Source: an uncultured Bacilli bacterium
Lineage (GTDB): Bacteria; Bacillota_I; Bacilli_A; RF39; UBA660
DNA: 35,367 nucleotides
Direction: 5' to 3'
Assembly: GCA_944350345.1 (NCBI GenBank)
Contig: CALVOP010000008.1
Span: 1 to 35,367 of the forward strand
Part shown: positions 1 to 22,883 of the stretch, in pieces
Numbering within the stretch: the stretch's first letter is position 1
Layout: every line of letters begins with the position of its first letter
Made by a program: the position numbers and the translations under genes
The notes under the pieces: model-generated
The model's input: only the letters and a program-made list of their open reading frames with translations
Told to the model about the DNA's origin: nothing
The model's database searches: none

Positions 1-2192
1 ATATCATCTTCACTTTTCCAATATCTTCTTCTATTTACTCTTATATAAAAGTTTGATACATCGTCGACGTATTTTTCGAAATTATCACAAACGTCTTTTG
101 AACTGTAATTATTCATAGCGTTTGTACTATTCTCAATAAAATCGTCTGTAATTTTAATTAGCCATTTATCGATTGTAGTAAGATCACTAATATTTGGTTT
201 GAAATTTGTTAAATCAATTTTATCTATACTAGCATAAGTGTTAAAGAATATTACCATATTCCATAATGACATTAATTTTCTTTTTGCTTCGTCTCCTAGA
301 TTAAATCCAAATCTAACGTTATTTACTGGGTTAGCACTAGCATATAGATATCTTGAAGCGTCAACTCCAATTTTATCAGTTGCTTCTTCAAAACTTATAT
401 TAAAACCTGTTTTTGAAAACTTACTTCCATCTTCTGCTTGAACCATGCCATGAGTTCCTACTGCTTCATAAGGGGGAACTCCTTCAATTACAGTGCTCAT
501 AAATAGCATTGAGTAAAACCATAATCTGATTTGTTCATGCATTTCTACAACATACTCTGCAGGAAAATAACTTTTCCAATATTCTTTATCAGTAAAGTAT
601 TTTAATGTACTAAATGGAACAATTCCTGCATCTAGCCATACATCTCCTACTTCAGAAACTCTATTTACTTCTTTACCACATACTGGGCACTTAATTTTAA
701 TTTCATCAATCCACGGCCTATGTAGTTCTTTAATGTTATCTACTAGTTGCTTATCTGTACTTAATTCTCTCAATTCTTCTTTTGATCCTACTACTGTTAA
801 ATGACCACATTCACACTTATAAAATGGTAAAGGTAAGCCATAAAATCTTTTTCTTGATATATTCCAGTTTGACATATTTTCAAGCCAGTCTATCATTCTT
901 TTCCCTTGATATTCAGGATACCATTTAACTTTCTTAGCATTTTCAATTAATTTTGGTCTAAGTTCATCTACTGCAATTGCATAGCCTTTATCTAATCTAA
1001 ATATTATATCTTCTTTACATCTCCAACAGAATGGATAACTGTGTTTTATTTTGTGTGTGAAATACAATTTATTGCGTTTTTTTAATTCTTCAAATACTAG
1101 TTCAGGAACTTCATCCGTCTTTTTACCACTGTAAAAGCCAAAACCATCATAGAATAGACCATTTTCATCTACTGGTATTACTATTGGTAAACCTATTTTT
1201 GTCCCTAAATCAAAGTCCTCAGCGCCACAACCAGGAGCAATATGAACTACACCTGAACCATCTTCGTTTGAAACATCTTCCCATAATACAATTTTATGAA
1301 TGAAGTTTTGCTTTTCAAGTTCTGGAAAACACGTTTCATATGTTAAACCTTCTAATTCAGTACCTTTAAATGTTTTTAATATTTCCCCACCATCTTTTTT
1401 GAAACGTTTTTCGTATACATCTAAACACATTATTAATGGTTTTTCTTCTTTTTCAAACTTTATACTTGCATATTCTAAATTAGGATTGACTGCAAGAGCG
1501 ACGTTAGCTGAAAGAGTCCATGGTGTAGTAGTCCATACTAAAATGTTTTCTTCTCTACCGATAATCGGTAATTTAAAGAATACTGCCTCATGTTCTACAT
1601 CATGATAACTACCACTCATTTCGTGTTCGCTTAAGCTAGTTCCGCACCTTTTACACCAAGGCATTGGTCTATAACTCTCTACAATCCATCCATTTTCATG
1701 GCATTTTTTTAAAAAATACCAAATACTTGTTATATTTTCATCAGTTAACGTGTAGTAAGAATTATCCCAATCCATCCATTGACCAAGTTTTTTTGATTGT
1801 TCAGTTATAACACCAGCAAATTTCTTAACACGATTAACACAAGCATCAGTAAACTTGTCTAACCCAAACTCTTCAATTTCTTTCTTTGTTTTGAAGCCTA
1901 GTTCTTTTTCAACCTCAACTTCTACCCATAATCCTTGTCCATCAAATCCATTTCTATAATGAGAAGTGTATCCGTTCATCGCTTTATATCTTAAAAATGT
2001 ATCTTTTAAAGTTCTACCCCATACGTGGTGGATTTTCATGCTGTTGTTTGCTGTGATAGGGCCATCAATGAATCTGTACTTTTTACCATTCTCATTTTTC
2101 TTTAATAATTTTTTAAAAGTTTGATCTTCTTCCCAATAATTTAATATTTCTTTTTCATGTTCGATAAAGTTGTAGTTATTATCTAATTTCAT
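1..2192 (-). CDS. ileS: Isoleucyl-tRNA synthetase, 3' end outside window
   Basis: Charges tRNA-Ile with isoleucine in the cytoplasm. About 730 N-terminal residues are visible; the stop lies beyond base 1. The start is ATG at 2192 after AAAGGAG. A class I synthetase is shown by a HIGH-equivalent HHVWGR near residue 45, the CP1 editing-domain strings TTTPWTLSANVALAVNP and GVVHIAPGCGAEDFDLG, zinc-ligand-like CxxC pairs (CKRCG, CPVCG), and a KMSKS-equivalent KFSKT. The last residues (NFYIRVNRRRYWKSE) match the start of the IleRS anticodon-binding domain. The variant signatures place it in the group with an altered HIGH/KMSKS rather than the E. coli type (family memory). Expression is very likely controlled by the T-box just upstream. 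Confidence 0.96.
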   Translation of the reverse strand, partial: MKLDNNYNFIEHEKEILNYWEEDQTFKKLLKKNENGKKYRFIDGPITANNSMKIHHVWGRTLKDTFLRYKAMNGYTSHYRNGFDGQGLWVEVEVEKELGFKTKKEIEEFGLDKFTDACVNRVKKFAGVITEQSKKLGQWMDWDNSYYTLTDENITSIWYFLKKCHENGWIVESYRPMPWCKRCGTSLSEHEMSGSYHDVEHEAVFFKLPIIGREENILVWTTTPWTLSANVALAVNPNLEYASIKFEKEEKPLIMCLDVYEKRFKKDGGEILKTFKGTELEGLTYETCFPELEKQNFIHKIVLWEDVSNEDGSGVVHIAPGCGAEDFDLGTKIGLPIVIPVDENGLFYDGFGFYSGKKTDEVPELVFEELKKRNKLYFTHKIKHSYPFCWRCKEDIIFRLDKGYAIAVDELRPKLIENAKKVKWYPEYQGKRMIDWLENMSNWNISRKRFYGLPLPFYKCECGHLTVVGSKEELRELSTDKQLVDNIKELHRPWIDEIKIKCPVCGKEVNRVSEVGDVWLDAGIVPFSTLKYFTDKEYWKSYFPAEYVVEMHEQIRLWFYSMLFMSTVIEGVPPYEAVGTHGMVQAEDGSKFSKTGFNISFEEATDKIGVDASRYLYASANPVNNVRFGFNLGDEAKRKLMSLWNMVIFFNTYASIDKIDLTNFKPNISDLTTIDKWLIKITDDFIENSTNAMNNYSSKDVCDNFEKYVDDVSNFYIRVNRRRYWKSEDD

Positions 2193-2411
2193 ATTTTCTC
2201 CTTTCAAAATAAAAACGCCCTTACAAAGGACGTTTAATTACGTGGTACCACCTTATTTGCTTCTCTTACTCTTAACGTGAGTTATTCGTATTTTTCTACT
2301 CTTTTCAAAAAATAACATCAGAACTGATCTATAATATATTACTTATAATTGTTTTCACCAACCACAATTTCTCTAAATAATTAATATATTACCGGTTTCC
2401 TCATTTGCTAT
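2193..2411 (-). promoter_or_regulatory. T-box riboswitch leader of ileS
   Basis: The leader runs from the inferred start site to the ileS ATG. The conserved T-box AAGGTGGTACCACG lies at 2254-2241, followed by an intrinsic terminator. Upstream it has the expected stem I features: an AGAGA element, a GGTTGGTG stretch, and complementary TAATATATTA arms. An ATC triplet followed by A (in AGATCAG, near 2329-2335) is a plausible isoleucine specifier. Uncharged tRNA-Ile should stabilise the antiterminator and allow ileS transcription. The T-box and terminator are clear; the specifier placement is a guess from position. Confidence 0.92.
2206..2233 (-). terminator. T-box-controlled terminator before ileS
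   Basis: On the minus strand ACGTCC pairs with GGGCGT (one G-T pair) around a 7-nt loop, followed by GTTTTTATTTT. It sits directly after the T-box sequence, as expected for the conditional terminator of the leader. Confidence 0.88.
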
Positions 2412-2417
2412 AGAAAG

Positions 2418-2446
2418 ATTATATACAATATTTTTTGTGTTGTCAA
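2418..2446 (-). promoter_or_regulatory. Promoter of the ileS leader
   Basis: A perfect vegetative promoter on the minus strand: TTGACA at 2446-2441, a 17-nt spacer, and TATAAT at 2423-2418. It predicts a start near 2411 and a leader of about 220 nt. Confidence 0.9.
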
Positions 2447-2496
2447 ATTAATATACAAAAGTTAGATGTAATTTAAAAGATACAAATAATAAATCT

Positions 2497-3057
2497 TTAA
2501 ATTCTGTTTAATCTTACAGTTACTCTGTTGGAACTATCACTTGTACATGTGAAGAGTGTTAAATCAAATTCACTATCAATCATCGCACTTACTTCTTCTG
2601 GTTTTAAAATTTCAATTAATTCCACTTCGTAGACATATTCATTATTATTAACATCAGTTATGATTACTTTATCTTTTTGACTTAATTTTTTCAAATTTGC
2701 AAACATACTTTTATAAGAATGAGCACATATAACAAGGTCATTTGTTTCTATTGCACCATAATATCTACATGGTGCAATTTGCATTTTTTTATAGTCCCAA
2801 TCGTTCATAATAGGTAACTTTAAATCTAAACTTTCTATATATATTACGCCTATGTAATTATTATCATCAATTTTAATTGTACTTACTTCTTTTGTTTCTA
2901 TTTCACTATTAATAATTATTTTTTCTAGTTTATTGCGCACTTCGTTAGACTTTGACTTAGCATTTTCATCACAATATATATTATAACAAAGCATACAAAT
3001 TGAAGTTAATATAAATGCTACACCAATACTTATTAATATAATTGACAATTTACGCAT
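2497..3057 (-). CDS. Second sortase of the pilus operon (class not certain)
   Basis: A 186-residue cysteine transpeptidase with one N-terminal membrane segment (residues 5-26). Catalytic His113 (CAHSY), Cys171 (FTCTS) and an Arg at 178 or 182 (NRVTVRLNRI) are all present. It lacks the C-terminal membrane helix and the DPF lid of the class C enzyme at 3918-4796, so it is probably the enzyme that attaches the finished pilus to the cell wall rather than the polymerase (inference). The TLFTCT and VTVR strings resemble class B/D-like sortases; the class is unsure. The start overlaps the stop of the basal pilin gene by 8 nt, indicating translational coupling at the distal end of the operon. Confidence 0.88.
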   Translation of the reverse strand: MRKLSIILISIGVAFILTSICMLCYNIYCDENAKSKSNEVRNKLEKIIINSEIETKEVSTIKIDDNNYIGVIYIESLDLKLPIMNDWDYKKMQIAPCRYYGAIETNDLVICAHSYKSMFANLKKLSQKDKVIITDVNNNEYVYEVELIEILKPEEVSAMIDSEFDLTLFTCTSDSSNRVTVRLNRI

Positions 3058-3928
3058 TATTAAATTCTCTTTTTAAAATGATTATACCGATAAGAATAAA
3101 TATTACTCCACTAATAATTAAGAATACTATTGGATAAAATATTTGACCTGTTTGAGGTAATTTATCGCTATTTATTATGGTAAATACATTATCAACGATT
3201 TGATAACTATCAATATATCCTTTAGGTACATTTACTTCTTTGATATAGTATTCATCGCTTGCTTCAATATCTTCAAATGTATAAGACCAGTTATTTTCTT
3301 CATTTAATACCACAGTTTCAATAACTTCATCATTTTTGTATAAATTAACTAATATTTCATGAGGTAAGTTTTCATTAACTGTGTTCCATACTTTATTTAT
3401 TATAAGATCCATTACTTTATATATGTCTGTTTTTGGTAATGCACTTATATCATAAATCCATTCATTATCAATTACATTAGGAATCATAACTAGGAAAGAA
3501 TCAATAACAGAAAAACCTTCCACTTTATTAGATTGGGTCACTATATATAACCCTAAATCTAGATTATCAAATGTAACTATTCCCTTATCGTTAGTTGATT
3601 TAGTTATACTTAATACATCTTTTGTTATACATTTTAATATTTCACTTGTAGCGTTTGAATTTTCTAAATCTTCTAGATTAAAGTCACATGATTTTATTTC
3701 ATCCACATATTCAAATTTTAAATTATTGTTATATTCTGTGGCATCAGCAACTTTATAAATAGTTATCTCAGCACCTTCAACTACAACGTTTTCTGAATTT
3801 TCTATTAAAGTTACTTTGATATTTCCTTTTTTATCAAAATCTATAATATTATCTGCATTTAACTTAAGCGTAACACCAAAAAAGATGCAAAAAATTAAAA
3901 TTAAACTTTTTATTATCTTATTTAGCAT
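3050..3928 (-). CDS. Minor (basal) pilin with LPQTG sorting signal
   Basis: A secreted, sortase-anchored protein of 292 residues. It has an N-terminal hydrophobic signal sequence (MLNKIIKSLILIFCIFFGVT), Cna-B-like modules (a GLYIVTQSNKVEGF stretch, and a C-terminal module with INKVWN as the lysine strand and YYIKEVNVPKGY as the E-box), then LPQTG, a membrane helix and a basic tail. Its single sorting signal, size and position between class C sortase and second sortase suggest the basal or anchor subunit (inference). The ATG at 3928 is chosen because GGAGG lies 8 nt upstream; a TTG 15 nt earlier is in frame but overlaps that site. It overlaps the end of the upstream sortase gene by 11 nt. Confidence 0.9.
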   Translation of the reverse strand: MLNKIIKSLILIFCIFFGVTLKLNADNIIDFDKKGNIKVTLIENSENVVVEGAEITIYKVADATEYNNNLKFEYVDEIKSCDFNLEDLENSNATSEILKCITKDVLSITKSTNDKGIVTFDNLDLGLYIVTQSNKVEGFSVIDSFLVMIPNVIDNEWIYDISALPKTDIYKVMDLIINKVWNTVNENLPHEILVNLYKNDEVIETVVLNEENNWSYTFEDIEASDEYYIKEVNVPKGYIDSYQIVDNVFTIINSDKLPQTGQIFYPIVFLIISGVIFILIGIIILKREFNNA

Positions 3929-4796
3929 ATTTCCTACCTCCAAACTCTTTTTTCATTTTAGATGGATAAATATATTTGTCAATTATATTTTTATTTTTAT
4001 TCACAGGTTTAATAACAACAATTAATAATAAAGCAATTATTATAAATGCTGCAATAAATGAAGTAACAATTATATTGCTAATCTTAAATGCTTCTGTAGT
4101 AATATATCTTGTTTTAGCTTCTCCTGTAATCCTAATTCCTCTTACTAATAATCTGTGAGTATTTATTCCATATGGTGTACATGTCATTAATGTGACATAA
4201 TCTTTTTCTTTATCTATAGCTAAGTACTTTATTTCAGTTGGTTTTATTACTTTAATTTCATCAACTTGATAAGTTAATTGCTGCTGTAAAATAGTAATAG
4301 TAAAAATGTCTCCTATTTCTAATTTATCTAAATCCGTAAATAACTTAGAAGATGGTAACCCTCGATGAGCCGATAAAACACTATGAGTTCCTATTCCACC
4401 AACAGGTAAACTTGAACCCTCTAGGTGCCCAACAGATTTACTTAACACTTCATCACTTGTTCCGTGATATATGGATAACTCTACATCTATTTTGGGTATA
4501 TGAATGTATCCCATCATGCCAGTATCAGTGATATTTAAAATATCATTATAGTTTTCTAACTTTTTATAATTATAAAACGGATCTATTAGTTTATTTAATT
4601 CGTTATTATAATCATTTGCCCTTTTAATTTCTTCTTTGTTTTTTTCTTTACTATAATCAACTAAAATTTTCTCATAACTTTTAATGGCTTTAGTTTGATA
4701 TTTTTCATTATATAGGTTGCTAAGTGAAGGGTATAAAAGAATTAAAAGCCCTATTAAGAAAAATACCAACATAATTATAACGGTCTTTTTTTTCAT
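3918..4796 (-). CDS. Class C pilin-polymerising sortase
   Basis: Joins pilin subunits covalently on the outer face of the membrane by cleaving their sorting signals and linking them to a pilin lysine. The 292 residues contain an N-terminal membrane helix (5-25), the class C lid motif DPF at 72-74, catalytic His144 (SAHRG), Cys206 (TCTPYG) and an Arg at 215 or 219, then a C-terminal membrane helix of about 20 residues and a basic tail. Two membrane segments plus the lid identify class C. It follows the backbone pilin by 27 nt (Shine-Dalgarno-like GTGGGG) and overlaps the basal pilin gene. Confidence 0.95.
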   Translation of the reverse strand: MKKKTVIIMLVFFLIGLLILLYPSLSNLYNEKYQTKAIKSYEKILVDYSKEKNKEEIKRANDYNNELNKLIDPFYNYKKLENYNDILNITDTGMMGYIHIPKIDVELSIYHGTSDEVLSKSVGHLEGSSLPVGGIGTHSVLSAHRGLPSSKLFTDLDKLEIGDIFTITILQQQLTYQVDEIKVIKPTEIKYLAIDKEKDYVTLMTCTPYGINTHRLLVRGIRITGEAKTRYITTEAFKISNIIVTSFIAAFIIIALLLIVVIKPVNKNKNIIDKYIYPSKMKKEFGGRKYAK

Positions 4797-4823
4797 TTTT
4801 TACCCCACACTTTTTACAATCTA

Positions 4824-6287
4824 TTATATTTCTTTAGCTAGTCTTAAACGTGCTACTAGTAAAATACCGAAACTTAATACCATTATTGAACCAATAGTAA
4901 TAAACAATGTTGTTCCTATTCCACCAGTACTAGGTATCATTGAACCTGTTGTATTTACTATTTGTAAACCACCGCGTACATATGTATTTTCATTAATTTC
5001 AGCATCTACATCTGAATTATCTGCTACACTAAATTCAACACGACTAGTTAATTTATTGTAACCATTTGGTGCAGTTATTTCTTCTAAGAAGTATGAAACA
5101 TCACCATCTAAACCTTTTATTGTTACTTTTCCAGCGCTTATAGTTGCTGAGTTATTAACATCTATTGTATAATCAACACGATAAACTCCGTTTCCTTCAT
5201 CTACTAATGGAACAATATTTCCGTCAGTTTTTGCATCATATAATTTAAATGTTGCACCTTCTAGAACAATATTTTCTGAATCAGTTTTTACAATATCAAA
5301 AGTATAAGTATATACTTTTGTTTGATCTTTAAGAGTTACGTGATTGTCTCCATATTCTAGCCATGTATCATTGGTATTAGCACTATTATATATAACTGCG
5401 TTTTCATTTAATTTTGCTTGATATTCAACAACAATATTATCTTGCATTGTTGACATAAATTCATTGTTAAATGTAATAGTGAAAGTAGTAGTATAACTAT
5501 TTTCTTCATATTTAACTGATTTACCATATTCTACTGTGTAAGAAGTAGTAGGTAATTCAGCACTTGTTGTTTCATTTTTTACTACTAAAGTACTATCTAT
5601 AAAAGTTAGACCAGATGACATAACGTCGTGTAAAACATAATTTTCTGCACCTTCACCAACATTAATAATTGTTCTAAAATCAATTACTTTCCCAATTGCT
5701 TCTTTGCTACTATCACCATAAATACCTGAATTATTCTCTTTTACAGTTTTATCAATAGTAGGAATACTATTTTTTTCATTAATTTCTATTTCTGAATTAG
5801 TAGTATTTAATGCACATAGACTACCTGCGCTTGAATCTACCAAATAGTATCCATAATTTAAGTTATCAAACACTAATGCGCTTGTGCCTGCTGTTTCGCT
5901 TCTAACTGCATCTATTTTATTTGTTTTAGCATAATTTAATGCATTAGAAGCAAATGCTGAAACATTAAAACCTTCACTAACTGTAACTATATAAGTATCA
6001 CTAGCCCCTCTTTGTGTTAAAGTTACTCCGTCATAGCTATTTAAAAATTCATACCATTTTGATGAATTAGAAATAGTATAAACATAAGCACCTTTTTCTT
6101 CATTCCATGACTCTAATTCAAATAGTTTGTAAAGACTATAAGTTTTACCTTCTATTGGATTAGATATTGTGATTACACCATCATTTGCATTAACACCTGA
6201 ATTTTTATCAGCAGCTAATACACTGATTGGTAAAATTTGTGTAAATAAAATTGTAATTGTTAATATTAAACTTAAAACTTTTTTCAT
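4824..6287 (-). CDS. Backbone (major) pilin, isopeptide-forming, IPSTG signal
   Basis: Probable shaft subunit of the pilus, 487 residues. An N-terminal signal peptide (about 1-25, ending SVLAAD) is followed by an N-terminal domain starting at GKTYSLYKLFELESW, a middle domain that starts after SIPTIDKTV, and a C-terminal Cna-B domain with lysine strand FDIVKTD and E-box YFLEEITAPNGY. The end is IPSTG, a membrane helix and RLRLAKEI. The usual pilin motif is not seen in standard form; the Lys of IDKTV is the best linkage candidate (inference). The Shine-Dalgarno is GGAGAGAGG. An 83-nt gap separates it from the tip adhesin gene and may allow separate mRNA control. Confidence 0.93.
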   Translation of the reverse strand: MKKVLSLILTITILFTQILPISVLAADKNSGVNANDGVITISNPIEGKTYSLYKLFELESWNEEKGAYVYTISNSSKWYEFLNSYDGVTLTQRGASDTYIVTVSEGFNVSAFASNALNYAKTNKIDAVRSETAGTSALVFDNLNYGYYLVDSSAGSLCALNTTNSEIEINEKNSIPTIDKTVKENNSGIYGDSSKEAIGKVIDFRTIINVGEGAENYVLHDVMSSGLTFIDSTLVVKNETTSAELPTTSYTVEYGKSVKYEENSYTTTFTITFNNEFMSTMQDNIVVEYQAKLNENAVIYNSANTNDTWLEYGDNHVTLKDQTKVYTYTFDIVKTDSENIVLEGATFKLYDAKTDGNIVPLVDEGNGVYRVDYTIDVNNSATISAGKVTIKGLDGDVSYFLEEITAPNGYNKLTSRVEFSVADNSDVDAEINENTYVRGGLQIVNTTGSMIPSTGGIGTTLFITIGSIMVLSFGILLVARLRLAKEI

Positions 6288-6348
6288 ATTTAACCTCTCT
6301 CCTTTTTGTTTTATATTAATTTTTATTTTTTTATCCCCTGTTGGTCCA

Positions 6349-6356
6349 CTCCTTTC
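6349..6356 (-). promoter_or_regulatory. Orphan Shine-Dalgarno-like GAAAGGAG in the backbone pilin 5' region
   Basis: GAAAGGAG lies 61 nt upstream of the backbone pilin start, which already has its own Shine-Dalgarno. It is followed only by an 11-codon ORF whose ATG overlaps it, so it has no evident coding use. Such sites can act as 5' mRNA stabilisers in Bacillus (known for STAB-SD elements). The role here is speculative. Confidence 0.3.
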
Positions 6357-6370
6357 ATATTCTATTCACT

Positions 6371-8719
6371 TTATAAATATCTTTTTTTATAAAACGAATA
6401 ACTTATATATACAATAGGTGTTACTGATAATAAACTACCTATTATAATCATTATTAACTCTAAACTACTACCAGTTTCAGGTAAAATATATAAACCTTTA
6501 TTTATAAACTTTACTGTATTTTCACTAGTATCTAGTAGTTTACACTCGTTAGAAGCATCACATGTCGCTTTTTTACCAATATATGTTGTTCCTCCATTTA
6601 ATTCATAAAATACATCAAAACCTTCAGCATTTAACTCAGTAATATTGTAAGTTGTATTAACTGGTAAACCACTTATGATTGCAGATTGATTGTGTTTTAA
6701 AGAAATTGTAGCTGCACCATTTTCAAGTACTAGTTCTTTAACTTCACTTCCAATCTTGTATTCATAAGAACCATTTAATGGTTTGTTATTATGTGTAAAT
6801 GATATTTTAAAATTAAATACCCCTGAATTTTCTATATTTCCAGTAACAATTTTTGTTATTTTTAAATCTGTTGTTTTATAGTTATTTATAAATTGGAAAT
6901 TCTCTGGAATACCACTTACGTCACCGTAAGAAATTAAAATATTATATTTATCTAAAGAAAGTTCAAATCCTTCTACAGTCTGAGTTTCTTCTAAAACATA
7001 TTTGTGTCCAGATGGAATGTTTGAAAATGTAACTAATCCGTTGCTATCAGATACTGCAGTATATGTTAAATCGGTAGGATGTTTTTTTTCTGACATACAA
7101 GCACAGTCATTTGAATGTGATAATTTAAATATTGCACCTGATAATGGATTACCTTCTATATCAACTTTTGTAAAACTTAGATTTCCTAAATATCCAACTA
7201 CTTTAGGAATTGGAAAATTAGTGTTTTTTTGTCCAGATAATACTCCATTAGTTCTAACTACATAAGATAATGTCGTTGTGTTGTTAGTTTCATATATATT
7301 GTTAACATCAAAACCTTCTAGTTCATTTTCTAATCTTATTCTATATTTAATCTCATAATTATATTTAGTCACATTCCCATTAGTAGTAGTTGTATAACTA
7401 GATTTTTTTAAATCCCATGTTATTTTATTTTCAGTAATGTTCGCTGTATCGCTTTGATTTTCATTTTCAATACTCAAACTATCATTAAGTTTATTAACAT
7501 CATCGTAAAATCCAACAAAGTCGATATGTGTAACATTACCACTCGTTCCCATTGGATCTGATACTACCCAGCTAGCATCTGCAATTTCTTCACTGCTTTG
7601 TTTAACTTGTTCAAATATTTGACTATATGCTTCAAAAAGTTCATCTTTATTTTTAACATCGTAATAAGTGCCTGAACCAATTTTAGTTCGTAACCACTCT
7701 TCATAATCACTAGTACTATTTCCAATTTCAAAATGGTAATTATTTAAACTAGGAACATTTGATTTATCCTTATCATAATCAACAAGTGAAAATTTAGTTA
7801 TTGCATTTATACCATAATTAGGATCTGGAAAACTTTGTCCATCAACGCCTACACCAATTGAATAAATTTTGGTTCCTTTATTTTTAATTTTATTTGCTAT
7901 AATTCTTGCTTTTATTGCAGCTCTATCACTATATGATGTACCATAAAGACAAGGGGCACCTGTAATTTCGTTATAAAATCTACCTTCTTTTGAACTAGTA
8001 ACATCAGAAATGTTTGTCATATATGGGTCATATCCGTTATAACCATTTCCATTTAAATATGTAGTTGGTAAGCCATCTGACAAGAAAATAATATATTTAT
8101 TTTGAACTAAAGTTTCGCTTAACATGTCGCTTGCCATTTTTAAACCGCCCTCAATATTTGTAAATCTATCATGGGACACTGAATATGATTCTAAGTTTGA
8201 AAATATGCTTCCTGTTTTATTCATCATTGTGTTTTTTAAATTTTCTTTTGTGTTATAATTGCAGTCACTTAAACTAAATATTTCATGTGCATGTGTATTA
8301 AATGCTACAAAACCTAATTTTCTAATTGCGTTTATATTTGTAGAATATTCAGAAAAATCATCAATAAATTTTTTAGCCGCCTCTTGTGCTGCTGATATGC
8401 GGGATGTACTACCAAAAGAAGTTGCCATAGTATTTGAAACGTCCATGACTATAACAATTGCCAAATCTTGATCTTTTAGTATTTCTTCTATTTTTGATTC
8501 TGTACTAACTTTTAAAGTTATATCAAAATAATTCTCAAGCGATGATTCTTTAATTATCTTGCTTACTGAAATACCATCATTGGTTCTATTTGTACCGCCT
8601 TCATAAACTACTTGTTTAGTTCCTTCTACAACATTTTCATTTATTAATGCAGTTACATTTATGAAACTTAATGATAATATAAGTAGACTTACAAAAAGTC
8701 TTTGTAATATTTTTTTCAT
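6371..8719 (-). CDS. Tip adhesin: vWA domain, Cna-B domains, LPETG
   Basis: A large surface protein of 782 residues, predicted to sit at the pilus tip and bind host or matrix ligands. A signal peptide (about 1-25) is followed by a von Willebrand A domain beginning AIVIVMDVSNTM, whose MIDAS metal site is DVSNT, with a later IIFLSDG strand. Two Cna-B-like domains follow: one starts SFTKVDIEGNPLSGA with E-box YVLEETQTVEGF, the other starts KITKIVTG with E-box YNITELNAEGF. It ends ILPETG, membrane helix, KKRYL. This architecture is typical of Gram-positive tip pilins. It starts 30 nt after the lepB stop. Its ribosome-binding region is an unusual run of eight G. Confidence 0.94.
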   Translation of the reverse strand: MKKILQRLFVSLLILSLSFINVTALINENVVEGTKQVVYEGGTNRTNDGISVSKIIKESSLENYFDITLKVSTESKIEEILKDQDLAIVIVMDVSNTMATSFGSTSRISAAQEAAKKFIDDFSEYSTNINAIRKLGFVAFNTHAHEIFSLSDCNYNTKENLKNTMMNKTGSIFSNLESYSVSHDRFTNIEGGLKMASDMLSETLVQNKYIIFLSDGLPTTYLNGNGYNGYDPYMTNISDVTSSKEGRFYNEITGAPCLYGTSYSDRAAIKARIIANKIKNKGTKIYSIGVGVDGQSFPDPNYGINAITKFSLVDYDKDKSNVPSLNNYHFEIGNSTSDYEEWLRTKIGSGTYYDVKNKDELFEAYSQIFEQVKQSSEEIADASWVVSDPMGTSGNVTHIDFVGFYDDVNKLNDSLSIENENQSDTANITENKITWDLKKSSYTTTTNGNVTKYNYEIKYRIRLENELEGFDVNNIYETNNTTTLSYVVRTNGVLSGQKNTNFPIPKVVGYLGNLSFTKVDIEGNPLSGAIFKLSHSNDCACMSEKKHPTDLTYTAVSDSNGLVTFSNIPSGHKYVLEETQTVEGFELSLDKYNILISYGDVSGIPENFQFINNYKTTDLKITKIVTGNIENSGVFNFKISFTHNNKPLNGSYEYKIGSEVKELVLENGAATISLKHNQSAIISGLPVNTTYNITELNAEGFDVFYELNGGTTYIGKKATCDASNECKLLDTSENTVKFINKGLYILPETGSSLELIMIIIGSLLSVTPIVYISYSFYKKRYL

Positions 8720-8726
8720 TTTAATT

Positions 8727-8734
8727 CCCCCCCC
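8727..8734 (-). repeat. G8 homopolymer in the tip adhesin ribosome-binding site
   Basis: Eight consecutive C on the + strand (G on the coding strand) lie 7 nt before the tip adhesin ATG at 8719. The gene has no other Shine-Dalgarno, so the G run itself must pair with 16S rRNA. I saw no other G or C run this long in this AT-rich window. Slippage could change the strength and spacing of the site. Confidence 0.9.
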
Positions 8735-8749
8735 GAAATTTATATGAAT

Positions 8750-9319
8750 TTATTTTTTTGTTGACCAAACACGAAATATAATTTTTCCAATAACATTTTC
8801 TTTAGATACGTTTCCAATTTCAGAATACCTTGAATCGTTAATGTTGTTGCGATTATCACTTAATACAAAATATGATTCATTTTCTACTTGGCACGGAAAC
8901 TCTACGTCAGTCTCTCCTAAATATATTTCACTTACATAATCTTCTTTCAAAAGTTCTCCATCAACATAAACATTACCACTTTTATCTATGTTTACAAAAC
9001 TTCCAGAAGTAGCGATAACTCTTTTGACTAAAACTTTGTTGCCGTGGTAAAACGCTATTACGTCTCCAGATGTTACATTTTGCGTTTTAATAAGTACGAC
9101 TATATCGCCTTTTTTATAAGTTGGATCCATAGACGATTCATTTATTTGAAGTACTGGTAAAAATAATGTTGCTATTAATATAGAGATTGCTAAAATAGTA
9201 ATTAATGAATATACCGTGTTTTTAATAAGTTTGTTATATCTGGATTTATAGGTTACCCTTTTTATTTCTTCTTCTATTTTTTTAGTTGTTAAAATCTTAT
9301 CATTTGCTTGCTTTTTCAT
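8750..9319 (-). CDS. lepB: Signal peptidase I of the pilus operon
   Basis: Cleaves signal peptides from exported proteins at the outer membrane face; in pilus operons a dedicated copy often serves the pilins. The 189 residues have one membrane helix (about 35-57), the catalytic serine Ser63 in SSMDPT, the general-base lysine Lys99 in KRVIA, and the conserved SDNRNNINDSR region near residue 155. The start overlaps the end of the upstream coiled-coil gene by 20 nt, with AAGGG as a modest Shine-Dalgarno. Family and active site are clear; a dedicated role for the pilins is inferred from position. Confidence 0.95.
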   Translation of the reverse strand: MKKQANDKILTTKKIEEEIKRVTYKSRYNKLIKNTVYSLITILAISILIATLFLPVLQINESSMDPTYKKGDIVVLIKTQNVTSGDVIAFYHGNKVLVKRVIATSGSFVNIDKSGNVYVDGELLKEDYVSEIYLGETDVEFPCQVENESYFVLSDNRNNINDSRYSEIGNVSKENVIGKIIFRVWSTKK

Positions 9320-9794
9320 TTTTTACCCTTTTTACTGGTTTTATTTTAGAAGTAGTTATTGGTTTTACTTTAGCGTTTTTTTCTTTTTTACTATTCTTTA
9401 AATCATTAGATAATTTTACTATTTCTTTCTGTAATTCATTTATCTTCTTTTCACAAGCATCTTCACGTTTTTTACACTTATTTTCTGTAAGTTTTAACAA
9501 TTTATTTCTTTCACTTTCCCATTGTTTTCGTAATTTTTTTTCTTCTTTTCTAACATTTTCTTTGTTATTATCAATAAATATTCTAACCGCTTCATCTGCA
9601 CTAGTGAATATTTCACTTAGTTTTAATGATGCTTCTGCTAATGTTCCACAACTTTCTATTGAAATTTTTTTATTATTTAATTTTCTTTCTAAAACTATTA
9701 ATTCTTTTTCTAAACTCTCAATTCTTTTCGTTTGTTCTAGCAGTATTTCTAATAGCTCTTTCCTGCTAAATCGCTTTAAATCTTTGTCAACCAT
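9300..9794 (-). CDS. Coiled-coil protein heading the pilus operon, function unknown
   Basis: A 164-residue, highly charged protein with no signal peptide or membrane segment. Residues 1-45 form a helix beginning MVDKDLKRFSRKELLEILLE; a middle segment reads GTLAEASLKLSEIFTSADEAV; the rest is long coiled coil with a Lys-rich tail. From memory, proteins with the same 'RkeLLEiLleQ ... aGslAEAal.l..iF..A' layout sit next to signal peptidase genes in many Firmicute pilus loci, but I know of no assigned function. The start at 9794 is chosen because AGGTGG lies 9 nt upstream; an upstream in-frame ATG would put the promoter -10 inside the gene. Confidence 0.85.
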   Translation of the reverse strand: MVDKDLKRFSRKELLEILLEQTKRIESLEKELIVLERKLNNKKISIESCGTLAEASLKLSEIFTSADEAVRIFIDNNKENVRKEEKKLRKQWESERNKLLKLTENKCKKREDACEKKINELQKEIVKLSNDLKNSKKEKNAKVKPITTSKIKPVKRVKNEKASK

Positions 9795-9820
9795 AATATA
9801 AATCCACCTTTTGGTTCCAT

Positions 9821-9849
9821 ATAATAGCAAGTTTTTCATCAAAGTTCAA
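9821..9849 (-). promoter_or_regulatory. Promoter of the pilus operon
   Basis: TTGAAC at 9849-9844, a 17-nt spacer, and TATTAT at 9826-9821 on the minus strand. The start site near 9814 gives a short leader before the coiled-coil gene. It is the only good promoter found upstream of the seven pilus genes. Confidence 0.7.
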
Positions 9850-9930
9850 GTTTTTTTTCATTTTTATCAATATTTCTTTTGCAAAAAACAAATTTTAGTT
9901 ATTTACCTAGTATTAATATATGAAATTAAA

Positions 9931-9963
9931 TTAAAAAAAGTAATACAATTTAATGTATTACTT
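9931..9963 (-). terminator. Terminator after divIVA
   Basis: On the minus strand AAGTAATACA pairs perfectly with TGTATTACTT (10 bp, 6-nt loop), followed by a run of T. It separates the cell-division genes from the pilus operon promoter. Confidence 0.92.
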
Positions 9964-9978
9964 AAATAATAAACTACT

Positions 9979-10416
9979 TTATTCATTTTTAAAATCAATC
10001 TTCTCTATTTCTTCAATTATTTCCAATTGGCTTTCAATAATTGATTTTAATCTATTTTTGTAAAGAATAATATTTCTTCTTAATTTATCTGTATCTGATT
10101 GCGCTCTTTCAGCTTTTAATAAGGCGTCATTTATAATGCGATTTGCATTTCGTTTTGCTTCATTTATCAAACTTTCTGCTTCAGTTCTAGCTACTCTTTT
10201 AATCTCGTCGCCTGCTGTTTCTGCAGTCATAATCGCGCGATTTAAAGTAGACTCAATGTTTTCGTAGTGAGCTAATCTTTCTTTTACCATTTCCAATTGT
10301 TTATCTACTGCTTTTTTCTCGTTTAATAAGTTTTCATATTGTTTTATAACGTGATCAAAATATGCCTTGACTTGTTCTTTATTATAACCACGAAATGACG
10401 TATCAAACTTATTCAT
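9979..10416 (-). CDS. divIVA: DivIVA-family polar/septal protein
   Basis: A membrane-curvature-sensing scaffold at division sites and poles, 145 residues. The N-terminal lipid-binding motif is seen as FDTSFRGYNKEQVKAYFDHV, followed by a coiled coil over most of the protein (about 25-140) and no membrane segment. Its length is near that of Bacillus DivIVA. It is the last gene of a two-gene unit with sepF, 19 nt downstream, with AGAGGTG as Shine-Dalgarno, and is closed by a strong terminator. sepF next to divIVA is a common Firmicute arrangement, which supports a division role. Confidence 0.93.
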   Translation of the reverse strand: MNKFDTSFRGYNKEQVKAYFDHVIKQYENLLNEKKAVDKQLEMVKERLAHYENIESTLNRAIMTAETAGDEIKRVARTEAESLINEAKRNANRIINDALLKAERAQSDTDKLRRNIILYKNRLKSIIESQLEIIEEIEKIDFKNE

Positions 10417-22792: not shown

Positions 22793-22883
22793 TTTTTACC
22801 TCCTTCAATAAGACTCGCCATTAAGGTACATTTCTGTTTTATTCTAACCTTTTCAGCGCGGTTGTAGAGAAGAATCTACAAAC
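22793..22883 (-). promoter_or_regulatory. L21-type ribosomal protein leader
   Basis: A structured 5' region of about 90 nt. TGTAGA pairs with TCTACA in a first hairpin. Then CCGC and AAGGT pair with ACCTT and GGCG in a longer, interrupted stem that ends just before GAGTCTTATTGAAGGAGG. Position and layout match the L21 leader known in Firmicutes, thought to be bound by a ribosomal protein. Identity is by memory of that motif, not alignment. Confidence 0.72.

Follow-up and report, generated by a model that had tools for sequence, protein, structure and literature searches.

The window analysed here is the whole stretch of 35,367 nucleotides of contig CALVOP010000008.1, from an uncultured Bacilli bacterium. 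It contains a run of eight G just before the gene of a pilus adhesin, and the question raised by this locus is whether the tract acts as a phase-variation switch, as proposed in a first-pass annotation, or as an ordinary translation signal. A homopolymer before an adhesin gene need not be a switch. We consider it likely that the G8 tract is a strong G-run Shine-Dalgarno (SD) site, within a pilus operon that was recently exchanged, and that it is no dedicated length switch.

The G8 tract in the sortase pilus operon

Direct reading of the sequence gives eight C on the plus strand at positions 8727-8734. The minus strand reads ATTTC-GGGGGGGG-AATTAAA-ATG, where the tract (8727..8734, minus strand) is separated from the ATG (8719..8717) by the 7-nt spacer AATTAAA (8720..8726, minus strand). 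The arrangement G8-AATTAAA-ATG before a vWA adhesin, as first annotated, is present as described, and no GGAGG-type site is found at this start, again in agreement with the annotation. The tract is included in the 30-nt gap between the stop codon of the signal peptidase gene and the start codon of the tip pilin gene. In the frame of the tip pilin, no ATG, GTG or TTG start is present further upstream of 8719.

The gene behind the tract (6371..8719, minus strand) encodes a protein of 782 amino acids that begins with the signal-peptide-like N-terminus MKKILQRLFVSLLILSLSF, displays the Pfam domains VWA_2, GBS104-like_Ig, SpaA and DUF7601, and ends with an LPETG motif and a membrane anchor. The gene directly upstream in the operon encodes a signal peptidase I (Peptidase_S26; 8750..9319). 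The other genes, identified by Pfam and also located on the minus strand, encode the backbone (shaft) pilin with the domains GramPos_pilinBB and SpaA (4824..6287), a sortase (3918..4796), a second, minor pilin with SpaA and Cna_B (3050..3943) and a second sortase (2497..3057). A protein bearing vWA, GBS104-like Ig and a sorting signal is encoded here next to two sortases and a backbone pilin, which makes the locus a sortase pilus operon with a GBS104-like tip pilin and supports the identification of the gene product as a pilus tip adhesin. Elsewhere in the window, a ribosomal protein L21 leader RNA (RF00559) was detected at positions 22801-22873 of the minus strand with 41.7 bits.

The 16S rRNA of the same genome terminates in GGATCACCTCCTTT, and the anti-SD partner of the G8 leader in this 3' end is CACCUCCUUU. 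The computed pairing is of -10.4 kcal/mol, against -10.2 kcal/mol when AGGAGG is substituted at the same spot and -7.6 kcal/mol for the genome median. Given this pairing, the usual distance of 7 nt and the signal-peptide-like N-terminus that begins at the ATG, the tract very probably serves as the ribosome-binding site of the gene, as had been proposed. Concerning the other pilus genes, to which sites of normal form had been attributed, this holds for the shaft pilin (AAGGAGAGAGG, -9.2 kcal/mol) and for the second pilin (GGAGG, -10.7 kcal/mol), whereas the remaining three have weaker sites: GTGGGG for one sortase (-6.1 kcal/mol), AAGGG for the signal peptidase (-4.7 kcal/mol) and AAGAGAA for the last sortase (-2.9 kcal/mol). 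The site GTGTGGGG of the sortase at 3918..4796 is likewise a G-run SD site.

In the reading that we prefer, the G run, placed 7 nt before the ATG within the operon, would form G-C and G-U pairs with the CCUCC of the 16S rRNA and would set a constant and fairly high translation rate of the tip adhesin. We infer from the sequence both the use of the G8 for initiation in the cell and the stable length of the tract.

G runs as Shine-Dalgarno sites and the predicted effect of tract length

As the first-pass annotation had observed, no other G/C run in the window reaches the length of the G8 tract, the next longest being of 5, and this tract is also the sole G/C run of at least 8 in the 898-kb genome. 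Runs of G7 or more are found at four places in the whole genome and G8 at one, when a first-order estimate from 435 kb predicts 3.3 and 0.53 per genome, respectively. These counts are near the expectation, so there is no genome-wide excess of G tracts. In dinucleotide shuffles of the window, 0.22 matches to a run of at least 7 are expected per shuffle.

The annotation had judged chance to be a weak explanation for the tract, a conclusion that does not hold once the selection of SD sites for G is taken into account. SD statistics were computed from 347 ORFs of the window and of 400 kb of other stretches of the same genome, the SD window being defined as positions -20 to -4 before the start. The ORF starts were chosen heuristically as those with the best SD in the first 40 codons, which lifts the SD strength of all genes alike. 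GGGG or more is present in the SD window of 23 of the 347 genes (about 7%), and GGGGG or more in 10, against 0.33 expected under random placement of runs of at least 5. This enrichment of about 30-fold indicates that G runs are a regular form of SD site in this genome, and the G8 tract would represent the long tail of this kind. From the extrapolated run-length distribution, 0.4-1.0 G8 SD sites are expected per genome, which corresponds to a chance of 35-62% of finding at least one.

The annotation had also proposed that both spacing and pairing change when one G is gained or lost. In the energy model, the 3' edge of the tract keeps its distance of 7 nt to the ATG whatever the length modelled, and the anti-SD can slide along the tract. 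The pairing computed in silico is of -5.7 kcal/mol for G4, -8.6 for G5, -9.4 for G6, -9.9 for G7, -10.4 for G8, -10.6 for G9 and -10.7 for G10 to G14. One G gained or lost near G8 shifts the pairing by 0.2-0.5 kcal/mol. This small change at a constant edge spacing predicts that a one-base slip would be nearly silent, which is the opposite of what a switch requires. Since the anti-SD can shift its position on a poly-G SD site, such a site should tolerate the slippage of one base, and a change of expression with a one-unit change of length is not predicted by this model, which leaves out initiation kinetics.

A phase-variation rheostat, with the translation of the tip adhesin tuned by one or a few G gained or lost through slipped-strand mispairing, is unlikely in our view. 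With 8 G, the tract is long enough for slippage (7-8 G or more), and it is within the length range of the varying tracts of Campylobacter jejuni, for which a cut-off of 7 is used (PMC6321876) and where G8 tracts change at an insertion rate of about 4e-4 per division (PMC8224891). The sortase pili of Bifidobacterium breve are switched by an intragenic G tract, and mixtures of lengths can be hidden by consensus assemblies (PMC9187656). Against the rheostat, about four G would have to be lost before the pairing drops to -5.7 kcal/mol, the genome is not enriched in G tracts, and both MutS and MutL are intact in it, although relatives that bear MutS do carry poly-G promoters with lengths that differ between copies. 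The presence or loss of mismatch repair was abandoned as an argument: all 18 tract-poor relatives have MutS and so do 18 of the 22 tract-rich ones, so that the two groups are not set apart by it.

Poly-G tracts in the relatives

The pilus operon is held by two of the six genomes of the genus, that of the window and one other uncultured Bacilli MAG (G003, contig CALVQQ010000012.1), the only close relative among the GTDB 220 contigs. The tract of G003 is also G8, so that no variation in length was seen, but it is included in a near-identical block (window positions 1..10290) that, leaving aside an element inserted in G003, displays only five substitutions over 10.3 kb, and it is not an independent copy. 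The next 14 kb of the window beyond the block differ by about 7% from G003. These comparisons suggest that two species recently came to share at least 10.3 kb with the pilus genes, or else that this block was collapsed in assembly. Since the block is near-identical throughout, the equal length in G003 is weak evidence either way: it counts only as a non-independent point against the rheostat, and its use as proof of fixation was dropped. The edge of the block is located at or before 10291, near a divIVA gene. Just downstream of the pilus operon, G003 has an insertion of about 1.6 kb (L011:4925-6510; window about 2454-2471) that carries a UPF0236 (PF06782) gene and is probably a transposable element.

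The next ortholog of the tip pilin, in genome G063, shares 48% identity over query residues 3-778 and carries AGGAGG at a distance of eight nt from the ATG. None of the other GBS104-like Ig or related vWA genes of the family with a readable start has six or more G, and their sites are mostly of the types GGAGG, AGGAG, GAGG or GGGGGAGG. Judging from these sequences, the G8 tract is not a conserved feature of the tip adhesin, and this lack of conservation in orthologs also speaks against a rheostat. Scanning the DNA of IMG/VR with a variable gap, so as to admit tracts of other lengths, gave 0 hits.

Poly-G tracts before start codons were searched with the pattern G8-N4-9-ATG in 386 genomes of the family to which the window belongs. 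Matches were found in 90 of the 386 genomes, some of them with dozens, and they form two classes: tracts directly before a real start, and tracts located between TTGAC and TATAAT, where the ATG is incidental. The genes of the first class that can be named by Pfam encode an Aminotran_5 protein (SufS-like), RsgA, a dCMP deaminase, a GGDEF protein, a phosphodiesterase, a BRO-N protein and a DUF2304 membrane protein. G8-9 at the SD position is found before ordinary cytosolic genes in this family (RsgA, Aminotran_5, dCMP deaminase and GGDEF), and the direct-start tracts fit plain SD sites as far as their sequences indicate. Two genomes (G065 and G196) match this pattern 53 and 45 times but the TTGAC pattern only once and not at all, respectively, which points to another poly-G architecture. 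In four others (G077, G211, G173 and G380), 24 to 44 matches per genome to the reversed control GTA-N4-9-G8 reveal a second recurrent poly-G context.

The second class was delimited with the promoter pattern TTGAC-N0-11-G7-N0-9-TAWRAT, for which a few matches count one site twice. This pattern has recovered 542 matches in 98 of the 386 family genomes, against 1 match for the control read backwards. The highest count is 45, in genome G359, and 35 genomes contain five or more, and none was found in the genus of the window among its members in the family table. In a class-wide sample, 43 of 386 genomes match; outside the family of the window, the hits are thinner and clustered in one other family (f21). 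Examples with G7-G12 spacers are the loci L216 (G029:C3:3500-10000), L145-L149 (G187), L136-L141 (G123), L180-L184 (G063) and L195-L199 (G377), all from the same family (f1).

Most of these promoters precede genes of proteins that are secreted or located in the membrane. An N-terminal hydrophobic segment is present in 57 of the 66 ORFs that could be read behind the fetched sites, compared with 123 of 363 ORFs of the genome of the window, the criterion being rough and the control ORFs coming from another genome. The domains detected behind the poly-G promoters are Peptidase_M73 (camelysin-like), Laminin_G_3, BspA-type LRR_5 and a pectate-lyase-like adhesive domain, together with the N_methyl pilin motif, DUF285, Big_2 and a weak Cadherin-like match. 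In G029, an array of tandem paralogs with a common N-terminus has promoter tracts of G7, G8, G7 and G8. The tract lengths differ in 15 of 16 groups of promoters with identical flanks, which were hand-picked by eye and illustrate existence and not frequency. The locus L216 (G029:C3) and the region G300:C6:8343-27066 both consist of tandem arrays where each gene or repeat has its own promoter with a G7-G9 spacer, and the proteins of L216, with their one common N-terminus, resemble a variable surface antigen family. In G241, G312, G123 and G158, many poly-G promoters are no further than about 150 bases from the end of a contig; the sequence just behind these promoters is thus probably repeated, and the copy counts are lower bounds.

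From their sequences, the TTGAC-Gn-TAWRAT tracts look like candidate promoter-spacer phase-variation loci with the porA-type architecture. If this is true, as many as about 45 candidate phase-variable promoters would precede surface proteins in a single genome of this large family, whose members are uncultured Bacilli and have small genomes. No report of poly-G promoter phase variation in this uncultured Bacilli group was found among the open-licence papers searched.

This use of poly-G tracts at other surface genes by relatives of the same family weighs against a fixed SD site in the window, as does the fact that the G8 is the longest such site of its genome and precedes a surface adhesin, where switches occur. 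A homopolymeric SD site whose length drifts by slippage and sets the output of tip adhesin, as a counterpart at the level of translation to the poly-G promoters of the family, nevertheless appears improbable.

The tract might alternatively be the target of a C/U-rich small RNA, with its length setting the strength of repression, as in Helicobacter pylori, where RepG targets the G-repeats of 7-12 of the tlpB leader (PMC8295292). Any CCUCC-like RNA loop could mask a G8 SD site, but no small-RNA family was found within the window and the tlpB tract lies upstream of the ribosome-binding site while the tract of the window is that site itself, which makes this alternative very improbable. Finally, the similarity of G8-AAT-TAAAAT-G to G10-TG-TAAAAT-G of genome G187 would allow the tract to be a promoter spacer of the TTGAC-Gn-TAWRAT class with TAAAAT as -10 box, the least probable reading of all and one that we rejected: there is no upstream TTGAC, the pattern has 0 matches in the genome of the window, no sigma-70-like or other promoter-like site spans the G8 with -35 and -10 boxes around it, and the transcript would begin within the ORF, without the start codon and the signal peptide.

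Comparison with known homopolymeric systems

The preferred reading, a strong G-run SD site, places the tract among the other G-run SD sites of its genome, which it resembles in CCUCC pairing, 7-nt spacing and strength and from which it differs as the longest. The sortase pilus switch of B. breve (PMC9187656) is comparable in that a poly-G tract adjoins a sortase pilus gene of a gut commensal. However, the B. breve tract (e.g. G11/G12) lies inside the first pilin gene, acts by frameshift and has measured mixtures of lengths, whereas the G8 of the window is upstream of the start and one G is predicted not to matter. The G-repeat of H. pylori tlpB (PMC8295292) is likewise a poly-G in a leader upstream of the coding region, but unlike the G8 it is located well upstream of the ribosome-binding site, varies among strains and is recognized by a small RNA. 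The homopolymer in the espR leader of Mycobacterium tuberculosis (PMC11898584) shares with the G8 its position in an untranslated leader and the ability of such a poly-G to affect translation; it is located 144 bp upstream and acts through the folding of the leader and not as an SD site. Concerning the poly-G promoter spacers of the Neisseria porA type (van der Ende 1995, as cited in PMC11898584), the architecture given there is shared by the TTGAC-Gn-TATAAT tracts of the relatives and not by the G8 of the window.
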